Origin: Ktedonobacteria bacterium
GTDB lineage: Bacteria > Chloroflexota > Ktedonobacteria > Ktedonobacterales > JACDGC01
DNA: 35,455 nt
NCBI GenBank assembly: GCA_027459705.1
Contig: DAIDHM010000075.1
Location: forward strand, 1 to 35,455
Direction of reading: 5' to 3'
In this document: positions 2,185-30,568 of the stretch, piece by piece
How the letters are laid out: each line of letters opens with the position of its first letter
Position numbering within the stretch: position 1 is the stretch's first letter
Program-made: the position numbers and the translations under genes
The notes under the pieces: model-generated
What the model saw: the letters and a program-made list of their open reading frames with translations, nothing else
Told to the model about the DNA's origin: nothing
The model's database searches: none

Positions 2185-3561
2185 ATGCAATGCACGCACT
2201 GTGGACGCATCCTCACTCCCTCCCAGATCGCCTCCGGGAATTGTCCCAGTTGTGGCGCTGCGATCGTTACCGCGCCACCTACCGCACATATGCCTCAAGC
2301 TGCCGTGACTGAGGATTCCACCGTCATCGCCCCCACCGCGTTGAGCGACCCGGCTCCCGCGACGACCGTCGCACCGACCGCAGCTCCACACCTTTGTCCG
2401 CAATGTGGTCGCGCCTTGACCGCCGCTCATTTCGCGGCTGGCGCCTGTCCGTCTTGCGGCCAGGTCCTCGTCGCCCCTGCGTCTGTCGCTGCGGTGGAAC
2501 CTGCCGCTACCTCTGAACCCGTCGCCGCCGCAGAACCCGTCGCGGCCGTCGTAGAGCCTGCCGCTACCCCTGAACCCGTCGCGGCCGTCGTAGAGCCCGC
2601 CGCTACCCCTGAACCCGTCCCGGCCGCCGCAGAACCCGTCGCCGTCGCCGCAGAACCCGTCGCCGTCGCCGCAGAACCCGTCGCTGCCGTTGTAGAGCCT
2701 GCCGCTACCCCTGAACCCACCCCGGCCGCCGTAGAGCCAGTCGCGGCCGTCGTAACGCCTGTCGCTATCCCTGAACCCACCCCGGCCGCAATGGAGCCGG
2801 TTGTCGCCACGCCAGCACCTGTCGCCGCTACGCCAAAGAGTGCGGCGCAACCGCTTCCTCCGCCGCCTATCGCTAAAGTATTCGAGAATCCTCCCCCTCC
2901 TCGACAGCGCAGTCCCCTCTTGATCATTATCTTGATCATCGTTGTTCTGCTAGCAATCATCGCTGGCGCCTATGCATTGATTACGCGGTCGGGGGGGACA
3001 TCGACCGGGGCGGCGGTGGCTACGGCAACGCTCGCGCCTACCGCTACTCTTGCGATCCCCACTCCTACACTGATTGCCGGGTTGCCGACTCCGGCCACAG
3101 GCTTCAGCCAATTCGCGAGCGCCGATGGCACGTATGGACTGAACTATCCTGCATCATGGGTACTCACAACTCAGCCAGTGACCACAGGGACGACCACGAC
3201 CACCGCGCAGATCTTCGCCAATCCCGATCTCAGCGCTGCTCTTTTGATTGCGCCGATCGCTGCGCAATTTGATCCCAAGTCGTACCAGACCTTGATTCAA
3301 ACGGCGTTTCAAGGTGTCAATGGCGCGACGAATGTCCAGATCAGTACACAGCCCACAAGCAGCACACTGGGCGCGAATACCTGGGCGGAGTTGACGGGGT
3401 CTTTTACGTATCAAGGTCAGTCGGAGAACGCTATCGCACTCATCGGGGTGCATAACCAGCAAACCTATGTCATCGCATTCTATGCAACCAACGCCACATT
3501 CAGCACCGCGCAGACGGACTTTTTTTTGCCAATTGCGCAATCATTCACGTTTCTAAAATAA
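2185..3561 (+). CDS. double zinc-ribbon, single-pass membrane protein with exported PsbP-like domain (array member 1)
   Basis: 458 residues. Two zinc ribbons with identical spacing C-x2-C-x13-C-x2-C sit at Cys 3/6/20/23 and 71/74/88/91. A low-complexity Ala/Pro/Glu/Val linker follows (about 100-230), then an R-Q-R stop, one membrane helix (about 244-266), a Thr/Pro linker and a C-terminal domain (about 306-458). The charge pattern predicts ribbons inside and C-terminal domain outside. The C-terminal domain carries the array signatures YGLNYPASW, LGANTW and a terminal SFTFLK. It resembles the PsbP/Mog1-like or DUF1795 type domains of many Chloroflexota proteins; that fold is an inference. Start ATG 2185 is chosen because GAGG (2171-2174) precedes it and the ribbon begins immediately; an in-frame upstream ATG at 2107 adds residues with no family character. 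Function unknown; a surface sensor or adaptor coupled to a cytoplasmic ribbon is plausible. Confidence 0.85.
   Translation: MQCTHCGRILTPSQIASGNCPSCGAAIVTAPPTAHMPQAAVTEDSTVIAPTALSDPAPATTVAPTAAPHLCPQCGRALTAAHFAAGACPSCGQVLVAPASVAAVEPAATSEPVAAAEPVAAVVEPAATPEPVAAVVEPAATPEPVPAAAEPVAVAAEPVAVAAEPVAAVVEPAATPEPTPAAVEPVAAVVTPVAIPEPTPAAMEPVVATPAPVAATPKSAAQPLPPPPIAKVFENPPPPRQRSPLLIIILIIVVLLAIIAGAYALITRSGGTSTGAAVATATLAPTATLAIPTPTLIAGLPTPATGFSQFASADGTYGLNYPASWVLTTQPVTTGTTTTTAQIFANPDLSAALLIAPIAAQFDPKSYQTLIQTAFQGVNGATNVQISTQPTSSTLGANTWAELTGSFTYQGQSENAIALIGVHNQQTYVIAFYATNATFSTAQTDFFLPIAQSFTFLK
2480..2800 (+). repeat. coding tandem repeats in the linker of array member 1
   Basis: A 39-bp unit occurs at 2542-2580 and 2581-2619 with one mismatch, with a diverged third copy around 2686-2718. 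A 21-bp unit is exactly duplicated at 2630-2650 and 2651-2671 and partly repeated at 2672-2683. All are in frame and encode Glu-Pro-Val-Ala type linker blocks, so copy-number change would lengthen or shorten the linker without breaking the gene. Confidence 0.85.
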
Positions 3562-3568
3562 TCGGCGC

Positions 3569-3607
3569 GCCAGCGGCGGATCGCGTAAGATCCGCCGCTG
3601 GCTTTAT
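3569..3607 (+). terminator. rho-independent-like terminator after array member 1
   Basis: A perfect 14-bp GC-rich stem (3569-3582 with 3589-3602) encloses a 6-nt loop GCGTAA and is followed by TTTAT. It begins 7 bp after the stop codon, so array member 1 is probably a separate transcript. Confidence 0.75.
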
Positions 3608-3700
3608 GATCGACACCCCGGCCTGGCAGTCGATTTCTCGCATTCCCAACTATCACGTCGCGCAGTGACCAATGCACACCCTTAGGTCCGGTTTTAGGCA

Positions 3701-3729
3701 TTGCAGGGTGGCTCGCTGTGTGCTAGCGT
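3701..3729 (+). promoter_or_regulatory. promoter of array member 2
   Basis: TTGCAG (3701-3706), a 17-bp spacer and TAGCGT (3724-3729) preceded by TGC, giving an extended -10. It lies between the terminator of member 1 and the start of member 2. Confidence 0.4.
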
Positions 3730-3853
3730 ACTATATGAAGGGCATACAGGAAGGCTGGGTTGCGCAACCCAATGGCAATTTCTGGGTGATCAGCCGCTGG
3801 TGTGGCGATTCTTTCAGGTTTTCGTCAAGTCATCAGGATCGAGGAATGAGAGC

Positions 3854-5038
3854 ATGCGCTGCGGATATTGTGGTCGTCGACTGACCGATGCCGCACAGGC
3901 AATGGGATATTGCCCGAGTTGCGGCACGCATGTGGATATGGCCGAAGCACCGGTTGCCGCTGGCAATATTCCCTCGGTGCATGGTACACCAAGCGGGTAT
4001 GCTCAGGCGAGCAAGAGCGGATCGCGAAGCACCAGTCAGCGCATTGTGGATGCTGGGCCACCGCTCTTCCCCGAAGCGCTGAATAATGGGCGCATGTCTG
4101 GCGCCAGATCGGCAGCGGACCTGCCGCCTGCCGTGGCACAACATCCACCATACGCTGTTTTTCCACCTGATGCTCAGTCTGATCCCGCGACAATCTATCC
4201 ACCTCATCCGCTCAGCAGGTCGCGCCAGCAATCTGCCGCCATTCCTCTCGGACCTGTGCCAGCGTCACCCTATGAATTGGCTACGCCACCAGCGGCGGTC
4301 GTCAGCGTCCGCCGTCGCGGTAGTTTCGTGCTCTATCTCTTCATCGTGCTCCTCATGGTGTTTTTGGCAAGTTTTGGGACGCTCTTTATCGCGGGAACAC
4401 AGGGGAGCGGTCCTTTCGCGGCCTATTTTCAACGCCATGGTCTTACCATAACTACGGGACTTTCCGTTACCGCGACCTCAATTGCGCCCACGGCAACCGC
4501 GCTGCCCACGGCGACGCCGCTACCCACGGCGACCCCTGTGCCCACGGCGACCCCTGTGCCTACAGTCCCGCCCGCACCACCAAATTACGCTACCTACACC
4601 AGCACAGATGGCGTCTTCGGCGTGAATTATCCATCGGCCTGGAGCGAATCGAGCAATCCAGCGAGTAACCTGATCAAATATCAGTTCATCTCGTCGGACC
4701 AAAGTCAAGTAGTGCAGATTACGGAGTATGCCAGCGGCACCACCTTCGATCCAACCCAGATCGCCGCCTATCTCCAAAGTTATGTCAGTGCAACGCCAGG
4801 CACGGCATCTTACCAGAATAGTCAAGATGCGACAGGAAAAACTATCGGCGTGAACCAGTGGCAAGAAGCGCAAGCGACCTATACGATCAACAGCGCGCAG
4901 CAAAACATCATTGGTCTGGCGATCACGCACGCGAACCAGGGATTCTTGATTATATACGCAGCGCCCGCTGGCAATTTCGATACCTCAAGTGGGATGGCTT
5001 ATGACACGATCGTGAAATCTTTCACATTTCTCCATTGA
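3854..5038 (+). CDS. single zinc-ribbon membrane protein with exported PsbP-like domain (array member 2)
   Basis: 394 residues. One ribbon (Cys 3/6/20/23) has exactly the C-x2-C-x13-C-x2-C spacing seen in member 1. Then come a Pro/Ser-rich cytoplasmic segment to about 150, three Arg, one membrane helix (about 157-180), a Thr/Pro/Ala linker built from an 18-bp DNA repeat, and the C-terminal domain with FGVNYPSAW, IGVNQW and terminal SFTFLH. The start is ATG 3854, preceded by GAGGA (3841-3845); the frame is open further upstream to 3701, but that stretch lacks an SD and contains the promoter. The next paralogue starts 82 bp after the stop with no clear terminator, so members 2 and 3 may be co-transcribed. 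No enzymatic motif is visible; function unknown. Confidence 0.85.
   Translation: MRCGYCGRRLTDAAQAMGYCPSCGTHVDMAEAPVAAGNIPSVHGTPSGYAQASKSGSRSTSQRIVDAGPPLFPEALNNGRMSGARSAADLPPAVAQHPPYAVFPPDAQSDPATIYPPHPLSRSRQQSAAIPLGPVPASPYELATPPAAVVSVRRRGSFVLYLFIVLLMVFLASFGTLFIAGTQGSGPFAAYFQRHGLTITTGLSVTATSIAPTATALPTATPLPTATPVPTATPVPTVPPAPPNYATYTSTDGVFGVNYPSAWSESSNPASNLIKYQFISSDQSQVVQITEYASGTTFDPTQIAAYLQSYVSATPGTASYQNSQDATGKTIGVNQWQEAQATYTINSAQQNIIGLAITHANQGFLIIYAAPAGNFDTSSGMAYDTIVKSFTFLH
4505..4558 (+). repeat. three copies of an 18-bp in-frame repeat (Pro-Thr-Ala linker)
   Basis: Units at 4505-4522, 4523-4540 and 4541-4558 each begin CCCACGGCGAC; the last two are identical. They encode the Pro-Thr-Ala-Thr-Pro repeats linking the membrane helix to the exported domain of array member 2. 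Confidence 0.8.
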
Positions 5039-5120
5039 GGTTTTGTCGCATACTTCAGGGAGGCGGCGTCCATTGCGGTGGGGCGCCCGGGCTTTTGTTT
5101 GCCTGGAGGTCTTATTCTCT

Positions 5121-6089
5121 ATGTATTATCCACCCCCCGATCCGGCGCAGGACGGAATCTCAACCGATATCCATCGTCGCGTCGAACCACCTGATGTTTC
5201 GCCCCCCACCCAGCCTATGGCGCCTGTCCCGACACCTCGACCAGTCATTCGACGGTTGCAGGGGAATCCTGATCCTTATGCTATCAACGCCATTCCACCG
5301 GTGGCCGCACCACCGCCGCCCCAGCCACGAGCCCCAGCATCGATGCGCGCGTTGCTCCTGGGCGTCCTGACGGCCTTCATTGTGGTGGGAATGGTCCTCG
5401 GTGGTGCCCTGTATGTGATGGGACGGACCGATCTGTTCACGCGCTTCACCGGTCAGGCGCACTCTACCCCCAACCCCACCGTTCCGACGCTGGGGGTGGC
5501 CACACCTGTCGCGCCGGTACCCACGACCACACCGGCGCCCATTGCAACGCCGATTGCCACGGCTACACTACTACCCCAACCAAGCGAAACCCCCATTGCC
5601 GCTACTATGATACCCAGCACACCCGCCATCACGTACGCGACCACCACTGATCCCCAGGGAATCTGGCGGATCAATGCTCCATCGGATGCGCAAGTGACGC
5701 CAGGCAGCTATCCGATCCTCGGTGTGCAAACCCCTGATGACCAGTTCGCGCTGGCGGATGGCGCATCCCTGACCATCTATGATCTCGCCGCGCCGATCTC
5801 GACCGCGCAGGCGCAAGGAGTGCTGGATACCATTGCCAGCGCGGAAGGTATCACCGCCGTCACCATCATTCAGCAACCGCGCCAAATGGTTATCGGCACG
5901 AATAGCTGGAGCGAGACACTCATCAGCGGCAATTTGCAGGGGCAAGTGATCGAGAGCGAGCTCCTCTACGCGCCACATGGGCAGGGTGCCATAGCTATCA
6001 ATTGCCTGGCAGTTCAATCCAGTTTCGCCACAACGTCGCAACAACAATTTCTCCCGATGGAGCAGAGTTTTACGTATTCGCAGGGATGA
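5121..6089 (+). CDS. proline-rich single-pass membrane protein with exported PsbP-like domain (array member 3)
   Basis: 322 residues. There is no zinc ribbon: the first ~75 residues are Pro-rich (starting MYYPPPDP) and presumably cytoplasmic. One membrane helix spans about 76-100, a Thr/Pro/Ala linker follows, and the C-terminal domain retains the array pattern as WRINAPS, IGTNSW and a terminal QSFTYSQG. The domain is more diverged than in members 1 and 2. ATG 5121 has GGAGG at 5105-5109. An upstream in-frame TTG at 5043 would add an Arg-rich stretch without family character and is rejected. Function unknown; it probably works on the cell surface like its neighbours. Confidence 0.8.
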   Translation: MYYPPPDPAQDGISTDIHRRVEPPDVSPPTQPMAPVPTPRPVIRRLQGNPDPYAINAIPPVAAPPPPQPRAPASMRALLLGVLTAFIVVGMVLGGALYVMGRTDLFTRFTGQAHSTPNPTVPTLGVATPVAPVPTTTPAPIATPIATATLLPQPSETPIAATMIPSTPAITYATTTDPQGIWRINAPSDAQVTPGSYPILGVQTPDDQFALADGASLTIYDLAAPISTAQAQGVLDTIASAEGITAVTIIQQPRQMVIGTNSWSETLISGNLQGQVIESELLYAPHGQGAIAINCLAVQSSFATTSQQQFLPMEQSFTYSQG

Positions 6090-6093
6090 TTGA

Positions 6094-6124
6094 TTGCATG
6101 GGTGTGGAGTGATAAGCATATAAT
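6094..6124 (+). promoter_or_regulatory. promoter of array member 4
   Basis: TTGCAT (6094-6099), a 19-bp spacer and a perfect TATAAT (6119-6124), followed by an AGGAGG SD and the start codon of member 4 at 6156. The spacer is slightly long. Confidence 0.5.
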
Positions 6125-6155
6125 ATCTGCATACACCCAGGCAGGAGGATTCAGC

Positions 6156-6827
6156 ATGGAGACTCGACCGCGAACACGGCAGCCAATCCAGGCAAACCCA
6201 ACACCGCGTGGACGAACCGGCATGAGCATCATCGGCTCACTCCTCGTACTTTGCGGCATCGGCCTATCCGCGTGGGTTGCTCGCGGTGGCCCCACGATCA
6301 ACACCACCCCCAGCACCATAGATGTCACCAAGCAATTGCGACCAATTGGGACCGCACCTGCGACGTTTTCCATTTATCTTGATAGCAAAAATCAGTTCGC
6401 CCTCTTTGTATCTACAACATGGGGGCATAGCGCAACGACCTTTACGATTGATCAGCAGACGGCTCCCGCGACGACCTTCGCGCCTCCTGGTGTCAAGACC
6501 CCCAGTTTAACGATTGCTATTTTCCCGCAACCGCTCGCGCAAGATCAATTTCTGCTATCCTTTGGGGCGGCGATACAGCAGAGCGAAGGTGGCACCTACA
6601 CACCGCGCAATACCATAGACACGGTGTATGGCAATCATAGCTGGCATGAATATGATGGGACGTTACTGCTCAACGGCACAACTCTTTCGATCACCGCCCT
6701 GATCCGTGACTACCATGGGGGCACGGTGCTGGTCTATTATGATGATTTGTCTCTGACCTTTGCCGGCTCGCAGAAACAGGATTTCATCCCAATGTTGAAT
6801 AGCCTGGGTCTGTCAGGTGATCAATAG
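6156..6827 (+). CDS. short-headed single-pass membrane protein, diverged array member 4
   Basis: 223 residues. The cytoplasmic head is only ~21 residues, Arg/Pro-rich, followed by one membrane helix (about 22-41) and an exported domain. Array signatures persist in weakened form: NQFALFVSTTW for the first strand, YGNHSW in place of the G-x-N-x-W motif, and PMLNSLGL near the end in place of PxxQSFTF. The start is ATG 6156 behind a strong AGGAGG (6143-6148); the frame is open back to 6090, but that part contains the promoter. The 3' end overlaps the convergent apt gene by 7 bp. Membership in the array rests on aligned motifs, gene order and topology; function unknown. Confidence 0.75.
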   Translation: METRPRTRQPIQANPTPRGRTGMSIIGSLLVLCGIGLSAWVARGGPTINTTPSTIDVTKQLRPIGTAPATFSIYLDSKNQFALFVSTTWGHSATTFTIDQQTAPATTFAPPGVKTPSLTIAIFPQPLAQDQFLLSFGAAIQQSEGGTYTPRNTIDTVYGNHSWHEYDGTLLLNGTTLSITALIRDYHGGTVLVYYDDLSLTFAGSQKQDFIPMLNSLGLSGDQ

Positions 6828-7366
6828 TCGACCACGACATGAATGGGGTAAGGCGCCAGGCGCGACCGGCCATCAAGCGCGCGCAATTCAATCACGAATG
6901 CCGCGCCGACAATCTGCGCGCCCAGGGTCTCCATCAATTTCATGGCCGCGAGTGCCGTCCCGCCGGTCGCCAAAAGGTCGTCGACGATCAAGACTCGTTC
7001 ACCTGGCTTTATCGCATCAGCGTGGACCTCGACGATATTGGTGCCGTATTCCAGGGCATATTCGCGCGAGATAGTGGTGTAGGGAAGCTTGCCGCGTTTG
7101 CGGACAGGGACGAAGCCGGTCCCGAGCTGATAAGCGAGTGGCATTCCAAAGAGAAAGCCCCGCGATTCGATCCCAACAATATGGTCAATTCGCTCTGCTG
7201 GGTGGTCTGGTGCCGCGCGAAAAGGCGCGCTTAACGCGTCAATTGTCTTGTGCAGCGCCTGCGCATCGCCCAGAAGAGGCGTAATATCACGGAAGATTAT
7301 GCCTGGTTCTGGAAAATCCGGTATGTCGCGGATGTACGGCTTGAGTTCGCGCGCGAAATCTGCCAT
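6821..7366 (-). CDS. apt: adenine phosphoribosyltransferase
   Basis: 181 residues, the usual length for APRT. It converts adenine and PRPP to AMP and pyrophosphate in cytoplasmic purine salvage. The diagnostic PRPP-binding loop VLIVDDLLATGGTA is at about 125-138. Upstream are the family segments FPEPGIIFRDITPLL and GIESRGFLFG, and the hood region around RKRGKLP. ATG 7366 gives the standard N-terminus MADFAREL; a further in-frame TTG at 7408 extends the frame but has no family support. The gene stands alone and ends within the last codons of the convergent array member 4. Confidence 0.95.
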   Translation of the reverse strand: MADFARELKPYIRDIPDFPEPGIIFRDITPLLGDAQALHKTIDALSAPFRAAPDHPAERIDHIVGIESRGFLFGMPLAYQLGTGFVPVRKRGKLPYTTISREYALEYGTNIVEVHADAIKPGERVLIVDDLLATGGTALAAMKLMETLGAQIVGAAFVIELRALDGRSRLAPYPIHVVVDY

Positions 7367-7410
7367 GGTCGCTTGTTTCCCCTTTGTGCGGTATCGATCC
7401 CCTATCAACT

Positions 7411-28070: not shown

Positions 28071-30509
28071 TCACGGTTGGCCGAGCGCTTCGTCGATGGC
28101 TTCCGCCAGCGTGAGGGCCTGGCCTGCCGCGTAAGCCGCTGCCCAGCGATTCGCACCGAGCGCGTCCCGCGCCTCCGCCACCCATTGCTCGATATCCGAT
28201 TGCTCAAGGGGTGGCAATGGCGCGCCGAGCTTGGTGCGCAAGGTTGCCGCCACGCCGAGGAGCCGGGCCGCGCGTTCTCCCTGCCCTGCCATTCCGGCGG
28301 AGCTCGCGAGGCCTTCCAGACCTACGGCACATCGCCGCGGATCGCCCAATTGCCAGTAGAGCGCCAATACTTCGCGCCCGAGCGCCTCGGACCGGGCAAT
28401 CTCGCCTTGTCGCAACGCCACCCCCGATAGATTCGCCAGGTTCGTAGCCGTCAGATCCTGATCACATGCCTGGCGCGCATAGTCAAGGGCCTGCGTAAAG
28501 GCATCCGCCGCCTCTCCCAGATCCCCTTGACCGTAAAGGACTATACCCAAGTTGGTCAACACGACCGCTGTCCCGCGTTGCTCATGCAGGGCGCGCATGA
28601 GTGCCAGGCTCTCCGCGAGGCAAGCCTGTGCCCGTGCCAGATCTCCTTGCTGGATCGCCATGACCCCCAGACTGCTCAGCGCATTCGCCTCCGTATGCAG
28701 GTCGCCTGCCGCGCGGCCGAGCGCCGCCGCCGCCACCAGCCGCTTCTCCGCCGCGAAATTATCCATTTGATAGACCGCCAGCACACCGGCGGCGAAGAGC
28801 GCCCGCGCGCGGATCCCCTGCGCCACCGCGCCCTCATCGGCCGCATTTGATGCTGGCACGATCGCCAGCAAGGATTCTGTCCATTGTCGACCCTCTTGCA
28901 GGTAGCCGCGCATCATCCAGAAGCGTAAACCCGCGCCCACGATGCGCAATCCGGTCTCCACCGCGTGCTGGTCGCGTGCCCACTCCAGCGCCACCCGCAG
29001 ATTGTCATGCTCGCGTTCCAGACGATCCAACCATTGCCCGGCGTCCTGTCCGGTCAGCGCTGGCGCTGCTCGTTCCGTCAGTGCCAGCATTGCGTACGCA
29101 TGTGCCTGCTGCAACGCCGCGGCCTCGCCACTGGCACGTAGCTGTTCCAGGGCATATTCGCGAATAATGCGCAACATACCAAAGCGAAGTTCACCAGCTT
29201 CCTCGCGCGGCTGTACCAGGGACTGGTCGACCAGCGCATCCAGCCCATCCAGGAGGTCACCACTGAGTGCGGCTATCCCTTCCGGCGCGACGCAGACAGT
29301 CTCGGCGGCCTCCAGCGTGCACCCACCGGCAAAGACCGCCAGTCGCCGGAACAACATCCGCTCCTGGGGGGAGAGCAGTTGCTCACTCCAGGCCAACGCC
29401 TTGCGCATTGTTTGCTGATGATCGAGCAGATCGCTGGGACCGCCCGACAACAATCCCAGACCCTGTTCCAACTGTGCCAGCAGGGTGGCCGGAGGCAGCA
29501 GCTTGGTGCGCGCGGCGGCCAGCTCGATTGCCAGGGGAACCCCATCCAGGCGCGCGCAGATCGCCGCGACCGCCGACGCGTTGGCCGGTGACAGTGCGAA
29601 AGCCGGGCGGAGCGCCCGGGCGCGTTCGACGAACAGTGCCACCGCCGGATATTCTGTCAGGCGCTCTGGCATACTGACCAGTCCTGGGACGGTGTCTGTG
29701 GGTGGGAGGCCGAGCGGCGCGACGGGATATTCGTGTTCGCCACGCAAGCGGAGCGGCATGCGGCTGGTCGCGATGATCGAGAGCGCGGGGCTGTGGCTCA
29801 GCAACAGAGCGATCGCTGGCGCCGCTGCCACAACATGCTCGCAATTGTCCAATACCAGCACCATGCGGCGTCCACGCAGATAGGCACATATGAGGTCAGC
29901 GATCGGTTGATCGCCTGTCACCTGTAGACCCAGCGTCTCAGCGATCTTGGGCAGCACCTGATTGGAATTGGTCAGGCGCGCGAGTCGTACGAACCAGACA
30001 CCATCCGTGTGATCCTGCAGCAATTCGGCGGCAACTTCGAGCGCCAGGCGCGTCTTGCCGATGCCGCCAGGTCCAAGCAGGGTGACGAGTCGGACATCCG
30101 CGCGGCGCACCAGCGCGACGATGGCACGCAGCGCATCCGCGCGGCCCAGGAGCGGCGTTGGCTGCACAGGCAGATTGTGGGACGTTTGGCCCTGCACCAC
30201 AGGCCACACGGACCCGTCGCTCGCGGGCTCCATGGCGGGGATCGGCACCTGATCTGGCCAAACCACAGGAGCGCGGGAGCGCTGCGCCGCGGCTAACAAG
30301 TCCTGCGCATCCTCAGGGCTGCTTCCGAGCGCTTGTAACAGCAGGGTGACGGTGTCGCGTCGTGGAGAGCGCCGGACCCCTCGTTCCAGGTCAGCGATGC
30401 CGCGCGCACTGAGCCCCGCCCGGCTCGCGAGTTCCTCCTGTGTCAGCCCGGCCGCGCGTCGACAGCGCCGCAGCAGTTCGCCAAATGCCAGGTTCGTCAT
30501 CTCTGTCAT
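28071..30509 (-). CDS. XRE-NB-ARC-TPR transcriptional regulator (AfsR/MalT-like STAND ATPase)
   Basis: 812 residues. An N-terminal XRE helix-turn-helix (FGELLRRCRRAAGLTQEELA followed by SRAGLSARGIADLERG) covers about 5-70. A linker leads to an NB-ARC/STAND ATPase with Walker A GPGGIGKTR, Walker B VLVLDNCE and the sensor IIATSRMPLR, then the winged-helix segment with LDGVPLAIELAAAR. The C-terminal ~350 residues are TPR-like helical repeats. STAND regulators bind a ligand or partner through the TPR part, exchange ADP for ATP and multimerise on DNA. ATG 30509 is favoured by GGAGGGG five bases upstream; ATG 30500 is possible and the frame is open to 30557. The target may include the GNAT gene 88 bp downstream. 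Confidence 0.92.
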   Translation of the reverse strand: MTEMTNLAFGELLRRCRRAAGLTQEELASRAGLSARGIADLERGVRRSPRRDTVTLLLQALGSSPEDAQDLLAAAQRSRAPVVWPDQVPIPAMEPASDGSVWPVVQGQTSHNLPVQPTPLLGRADALRAIVALVRRADVRLVTLLGPGGIGKTRLALEVAAELLQDHTDGVWFVRLARLTNSNQVLPKIAETLGLQVTGDQPIADLICAYLRGRRMVLVLDNCEHVVAAAPAIALLLSHSPALSIIATSRMPLRLRGEHEYPVAPLGLPPTDTVPGLVSMPERLTEYPAVALFVERARALRPAFALSPANASAVAAICARLDGVPLAIELAAARTKLLPPATLLAQLEQGLGLLSGGPSDLLDHQQTMRKALAWSEQLLSPQERMLFRRLAVFAGGCTLEAAETVCVAPEGIAALSGDLLDGLDALVDQSLVQPREEAGELRFGMLRIIREYALEQLRASGEAAALQQAHAYAMLALTERAAPALTGQDAGQWLDRLEREHDNLRVALEWARDQHAVETGLRIVGAGLRFWMMRGYLQEGRQWTESLLAIVPASNAADEGAVAQGIRARALFAAGVLAVYQMDNFAAEKRLVAAAALGRAAGDLHTEANALSSLGVMAIQQGDLARAQACLAESLALMRALHEQRGTAVVLTNLGIVLYGQGDLGEAADAFTQALDYARQACDQDLTATNLANLSGVALRQGEIARSEALGREVLALYWQLGDPRRCAVGLEGLASSAGMAGQGERAARLLGVAATLRTKLGAPLPPLEQSDIEQWVAEARDALGANRWAAAYAAGQALTLAEAIDEALGQP

Positions 30510-30568
30510 GACGTCCCCTCCACCAATTGACCACATTATCAAGCATGATGTCTGCATGCCATTAACTT

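Follow-up and report, generated by a model that had tools for sequence, protein, structure and literature searches.

Four tandem genes of a Ktedonobacteria bacterium, here named A, B, C and D, encode exported domains that are homologous by sequence comparison, and modelling of two of these domains supports one fold common to all four. Domain phylogeny resolves B, C and D as separate, old orthologue groups found across the family, and their array is kept in relatives; A, a fourth member of the family, is outside the conserved array and adjoins B–C–D in this genome. The reading towards which we lean, as somewhat better than an even choice, is that B, C and D are a conserved set of wall-located binding modules of the PsbP fold, whose cytoplasmic heads would couple to different inner partners and which would act together.

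Gene layout and cytoplasmic heads

The window is the whole 35,455-nucleotide stretch that was analysed (contig DAIDHM010000075.1, positions 1–35,455, forward strand). Genes A–D are four tandem plus-strand open reading frames at 2185–6827, encoding proteins of 458, 394, 322 and 223 residues, respectively. They are flanked upstream by a peptide-release-factor-like gene (737–1828) and downstream, on the opposite strand, by an adenine-phosphoribosyltransferase-like gene (6821–7408), both named from reading their translations. The four proteins follow a common plan of a head, a single hydrophobic helix, a linker (Thr/Pro-rich in A, B and C) and an exported domain of about 150 residues. Hydropathy and charge predict a single-pass topology with the N-terminus inside and the C-terminus outside. 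Relatives have lipoprotein versions in which a lipobox adjoins this domain, which argues that the domain is exported. The features are listed in Table 1.

Table 1. Coordinates of genes A–D and of their parts in the window.
Feature	Position	Strand	Remark
Gene A: two zinc ribbons, Glu/Pro/Ala repeat region, TM helix, Thr/Pro-rich stalk, PsbP-fold domain	2185..3561	+	
A, zinc ribbon 1 (C-x2-C-x13-C-x2-C)	2191..2253	+	Pfam PF06221 and others
A, zinc ribbon 2 (spacing as ribbon 1, which it resembles)	2395..2457	+	
A, imperfect tandem repeat of EPVAA/EPAATP units, lengthening the head	2494..2823	+	
A, TM helix	2917..2973	+	Hydropathy 3.29
A, exported PsbP-fold domain	3100..3558	+	pLDDT 87.7; 2xb3 E 2.4e-7
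Terminator-like hairpin directly 3' of A (14-bp perfect stem, weak T tail)	3569..3602	+	
Gene B: one zinc ribbon, Pro-rich linker, TM helix, Thr/Pro stalk, PsbP-like domain	3854..5038	+	
B, zinc ribbon	3860..3922	+	
B, TM helix	4307..4363	+	
B, exported PsbP-like domain	4583..5035	+	
Gene C: Pro-rich head with conserved TQP motif, TM helix, stalk, PsbP-like domain	5121..6089	+	
C, TQPM motif of the head (TQP part kept in all C orthologues)	5208..5219	+	
C, TM helix	5349..5405	+	
C, exported PsbP-like domain	5625..6086	+	
Gene D: Arg-rich head of about 22 residues, TM helix, PsbP-fold domain	6156..6827	+	
D, TM helix	6222..6278	+	
D, exported PsbP-fold domain	6363..6824	+	pLDDT 92.4; 2xb3 E 1.3e-6

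The heads form a series from two ribbons and a long repeat (A) through one ribbon (B) and a Pro-rich tail (C) to the short head of D. All three ribbons have exactly the same cysteine spacing. Within the window's family the x13 spacing is common too; across the order, x10 is found in 23 of 48 ribbons and x13 in 15 of 48. The cysteine pattern, together with Pfam matches that are mostly sub-threshold (one, PF06221, exceeds its cut-off), points to putative zinc binding. The second ribbon of A and its 330-bp repeat look like gains. Since TQP is present in every C orthologue and the D heads of the window genome and of relatives G004 and G002 share a PxGRxGM stretch, the heads of C and D are not simply decaying. 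TQP also occurs in the first gene of another locus (L026), and another group of heads has FYxDATEAM. The Thr motifs were found in nine heads against 0.4 in shuffles, a count in which two orthologue groups enter repeatedly and for which the motif was chosen post hoc; TQP and DATEAM are thus a lead as possible phospho-Thr/FHA motifs. A kinase-domain search of A–D gave no match.

The A–B spacer is 292 bp long and contains the hairpin; in a promoter scan, the number of matches was not above that in shuffles. A 25-nt stretch is 92% identical between the head of A (2351–2375) and the domain of D (6460–6484), by chance or conversion. Elsewhere in the window, a large minus-strand gene (28071–30557) with an HTH start, an NB-type ATPase and a repeat-rich C-terminus reads as AfsR/LAL-type regulator-like.

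Homology and fold of the exported domains

The exported domains were compared pairwise by BLOSUM62 local alignment. The scores of A–B (186), A–C (140), A–D (93), B–C (79) and C–D (69) were reached by none of 1000 shuffles (z = 19, 15, 8.7, 6.4 and 7.1, respectively). The B–D pair is undetectable by pairwise comparison, with 75 of 1000 shuffles reaching its score. A profile search joined all four domains, B–D included; the profile was seeded with A–D themselves, and independent relatives nevertheless join the tree groups. The open reading frames, shuffle tests and profile agree with the first-pass annotation, which had described four tandem genes, each with one helix and a homologous exported domain, and the stepwise head series with its exact ribbon spacing. 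It had also aligned three motifs in all four domains. GxNxW is literal in A, B and C (GNHSW in D), but NYPxxW is literal in A and B only (NAPSDA in C and FVSTTW in D), as is the SFTF end (SFTY in C and SLGL in D). The progressive divergence that it proposed is only approximate: D has the lowest identities (19–23%), but A–C (27–28%) is about equal to A–B (28–29%).

Structures were predicted with AlphaFold2 for the domains of A and of D, the most divergent member, from alignments of only 11 sequences. The two models have high pLDDT values (Table 1) and a nearly equal order of elements. Their top Foldseek matches are PsbP-family structures (2xb3, probability 1.00; E values in Table 1), and the best PDB sequence match of the family profile is also PsbP (E = 2e-4); a fold of the PsbP/Mog1/DUF1795 type had been anticipated from the sequence. 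Tsi3, EagT6/SciW and LpqN are also among the fold matches of the two models. The cut-off of the Pfam PsbP family (PF01789, 23.5 bits) is not reached by the A domain alone (20.7) or by the full-length B protein (14.2), and a scan of full-length C and D gave no match to PF01789; at E ≤ 0.1, 18 of 41 relatives match it, the best at 2.4e-6.

Most of what is known about PsbP concerns photosystem II. CyanoP and PsbP (PF01789; 2xb3, 1v2b) have a similar fold (TM ~0.65), are the best profile match in the PDB and share an extracytoplasmic site; the window proteins differ from them in identity (~15% or less), in a domain below the Pfam cut-off, in a membrane anchor with a cytoplasmic head and in a genome without a photosystem. 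The fold class is shared with LpqN, DcrB and DUF1795-Mog1 proteins, of which LpqN and DcrB, in common with several members of the present family, are lipoproteins, but the fold match is weaker (TM ~0.4–0.5) and those proteins lack a zinc ribbon or stalk.

Distribution, array and age

The domain was found in all 47 genomes of the order (1–10 copies each); elsewhere in the phylum sample it is sparse and weak. The heads of 82 distinct domain proteins were classified automatically, and hence approximately, with some open reading frames cut by locus ends: 44 have one ribbon, two have two ribbons, ten are lipoproteins, two are kinases and 24 are others; Pro-rich heads also occur in the order. A narrow-alignment search of named genomes gave three relevant loci, all in Ktedonobacteria or Chloroflexi metagenome assemblies, and one ribbon-only match. 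The two kinase heads, the only ones found, belong to tandem Ser/Thr kinases with a PsbP-like outer domain in G044 (L058:1923-5698, G044:C1); the first gave a Pfam E value of 1e-34, and the outer domains are 33–43% identical to those of ribbon-headed relatives in other genomes. The closest copy within G044 itself (L111) has no ribbon in its open frame. The head position thus looks like an inner-coupling site, judged from this one genome. At L042:2080-3267 the same outer domain follows a head, about 100 residues long, that is TIR-like by eye; a Pfam search was without match.

The order B–C–D is kept in G004 and G002, which belong to one genus (in G002 the B gene is cut by the contig end), and B and D lie together in G003 and G005 of another genus, both of which have a divergent C-type gene elsewhere. 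The C–D (or B–D) gaps are ~20–65 bp. The genes flanking the array differ in each genus, so that the conserved unit is the B–C–D set itself. The survey of relatives that the first-pass annotation had proposed therefore recovered an ordered array; the genes are not scattered in all relatives, and the A and D folds are not unrelated. The nearest relative of A in G004 lies on a separate contig and has a single ribbon. Without A, which happens to adjoin B–C–D here, there would be no four-step head series. A second, divergent tandem pair of the family with other heads is present in the window genome (L025:504-2864, G000:C84).

Trees were built on the family domains from six genomes of the family. 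B, C and D each form a clade (support 100/99, 95/92 and 99/97, respectively), with C and D as sister groups (87/84). These groups bear on the proposal of the first-pass annotation that the array arose by local duplication in which the cytoplasmic head was lost by degrees, here taken as a recent event of this lineage. The tandem order, the monotonically shorter heads, the sister grouping of C and D, and the predominance of ribbon heads among the 82 domains, which makes loss in C and D parsimonious, all speak for such an origin. It is nevertheless improbable: forcing the four window copies into one clade made the log-likelihood 102 worse (AU p = 0.0002), and forcing window B, C and D alone gave p = 0.0003, while the relative of A in G004 is on another contig, the second ribbon and repeat array of A look gained and the heads of C and D are conserved. 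The AU test does not reject a single origin for all B, C and D genes (p = 0.44), nor one that includes A (0.17). Window-only duplication being rejected and a common B–C–D origin being compatible, an ancient tandem duplication with a single loss of the ribbon before the C/D split is possible.

Proposed function and alternatives

In the reading that we favour, the linker would hold the PsbP-fold domain away from the membrane, and the outer domain would most likely serve as a module that binds proteins or lipids in the cell wall, by analogy with the extracytoplasmic PsbP-fold proteins CyanoP and LpqN. The heads would be interchangeable inner-coupling parts, namely a zinc ribbon, a short-motif tail or a kinase; B, C and D would most likely form one surface unit to which B contributes a zinc-ribbon contact. 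We infer both the binding role and the joint action of B, C and D, and it is plausible, as previously suggested, that only some members signal inward. Gene proximity alone is no proof of a B–C–D complex, and the separate C-type gene in G003 and G005 indicates that strict co-action is not required everywhere.

Several other roles were weighed against these data. The proteins might be accessories of transport or envelope assembly that hand over lipid or protein, as LpqN may, with heads that are mere anchors without signalling. LpqN is among the fold matches and is reported to interact with the MmpL3 and MmpL11 transporters (PMC7458404), and D and the lipoprotein forms are virtually headless; the other heads are, however, long and include conserved elements, namely the ribbon and the TQP motif, G044 has a kinase in place of the ribbon and the array has no transporter gene, so we consider this account unlikely. 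Rather doubtful is an order-wide receptor system, with a PsbP-fold sensor, swapped heads (ribbon, kinase, or short Thr motifs that the many Ser/Thr kinases of the cell would phosphorylate and FHA proteins would read) and B–C–D as a three-part receptor. Bacterial receptor Ser/Thr kinases do have a kinase inside, one TM helix and a stalked sensor outside, and the relatives in G044 carry such a head, whereas the window genes have no kinase domain; the 28 kinase and 15 FHA profile matches in the window genome make a phospho-Thr link possible, no more.

The array might instead confer Tsi3-type immunity, Tsi3 having a PsbP-like fold, with members diversified in tandem to neutralize wall-acting toxins. 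Tsi3 and EagT6/SciW are indeed fold matches, and T6SS operons include PsbP/MOG1 proteins, which are also found as fusions in polyimmunity contexts (PMC3482391). The fixed order of one-to-one orthologues in different genera, the zinc-ribbon and kinase heads with their stalks, the much closer fold match to PsbP and the lack of a recognized toxin gene beside the array on inspection of the open reading frames, in the window or in relatives, make this very improbable. Although PsbP is the best match in both fold and sequence, a role as photosystem-type extrinsic subunits deserves almost no credence: a search for the reaction-centre family PF00124 gave no match in the window genome (a 95% complete assembly) and was positive in the Synechococcus control.

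The membrane plan has a counterpart in TcaA of Staphylococcus aureus, which is predicted to have a zinc finger inside, one span and most of the protein outside (PMC10328498). A and B follow this plan, with an N-terminal Cys4 ribbon, one TM helix and an exported C-terminus, and C and D lack the ribbon; the likeness is one of predicted plan. The resemblance to LpqN and to TcaA is one of analogy, not membership. A literature search among open papers turned up none that treats PsbP together with Chloroflexi and a zinc ribbon, which hints that a stalked PsbP-fold family with zinc-ribbon heads may be undescribed in the literature. That all sampled genomes of this non-cyanobacterial order carry the PsbP-fold domain, stalked and with swappable heads, suggests a general surface-binding role for this fold in such bacteria, and the B–C–D set is a small, defined target in which such a role could be tested.
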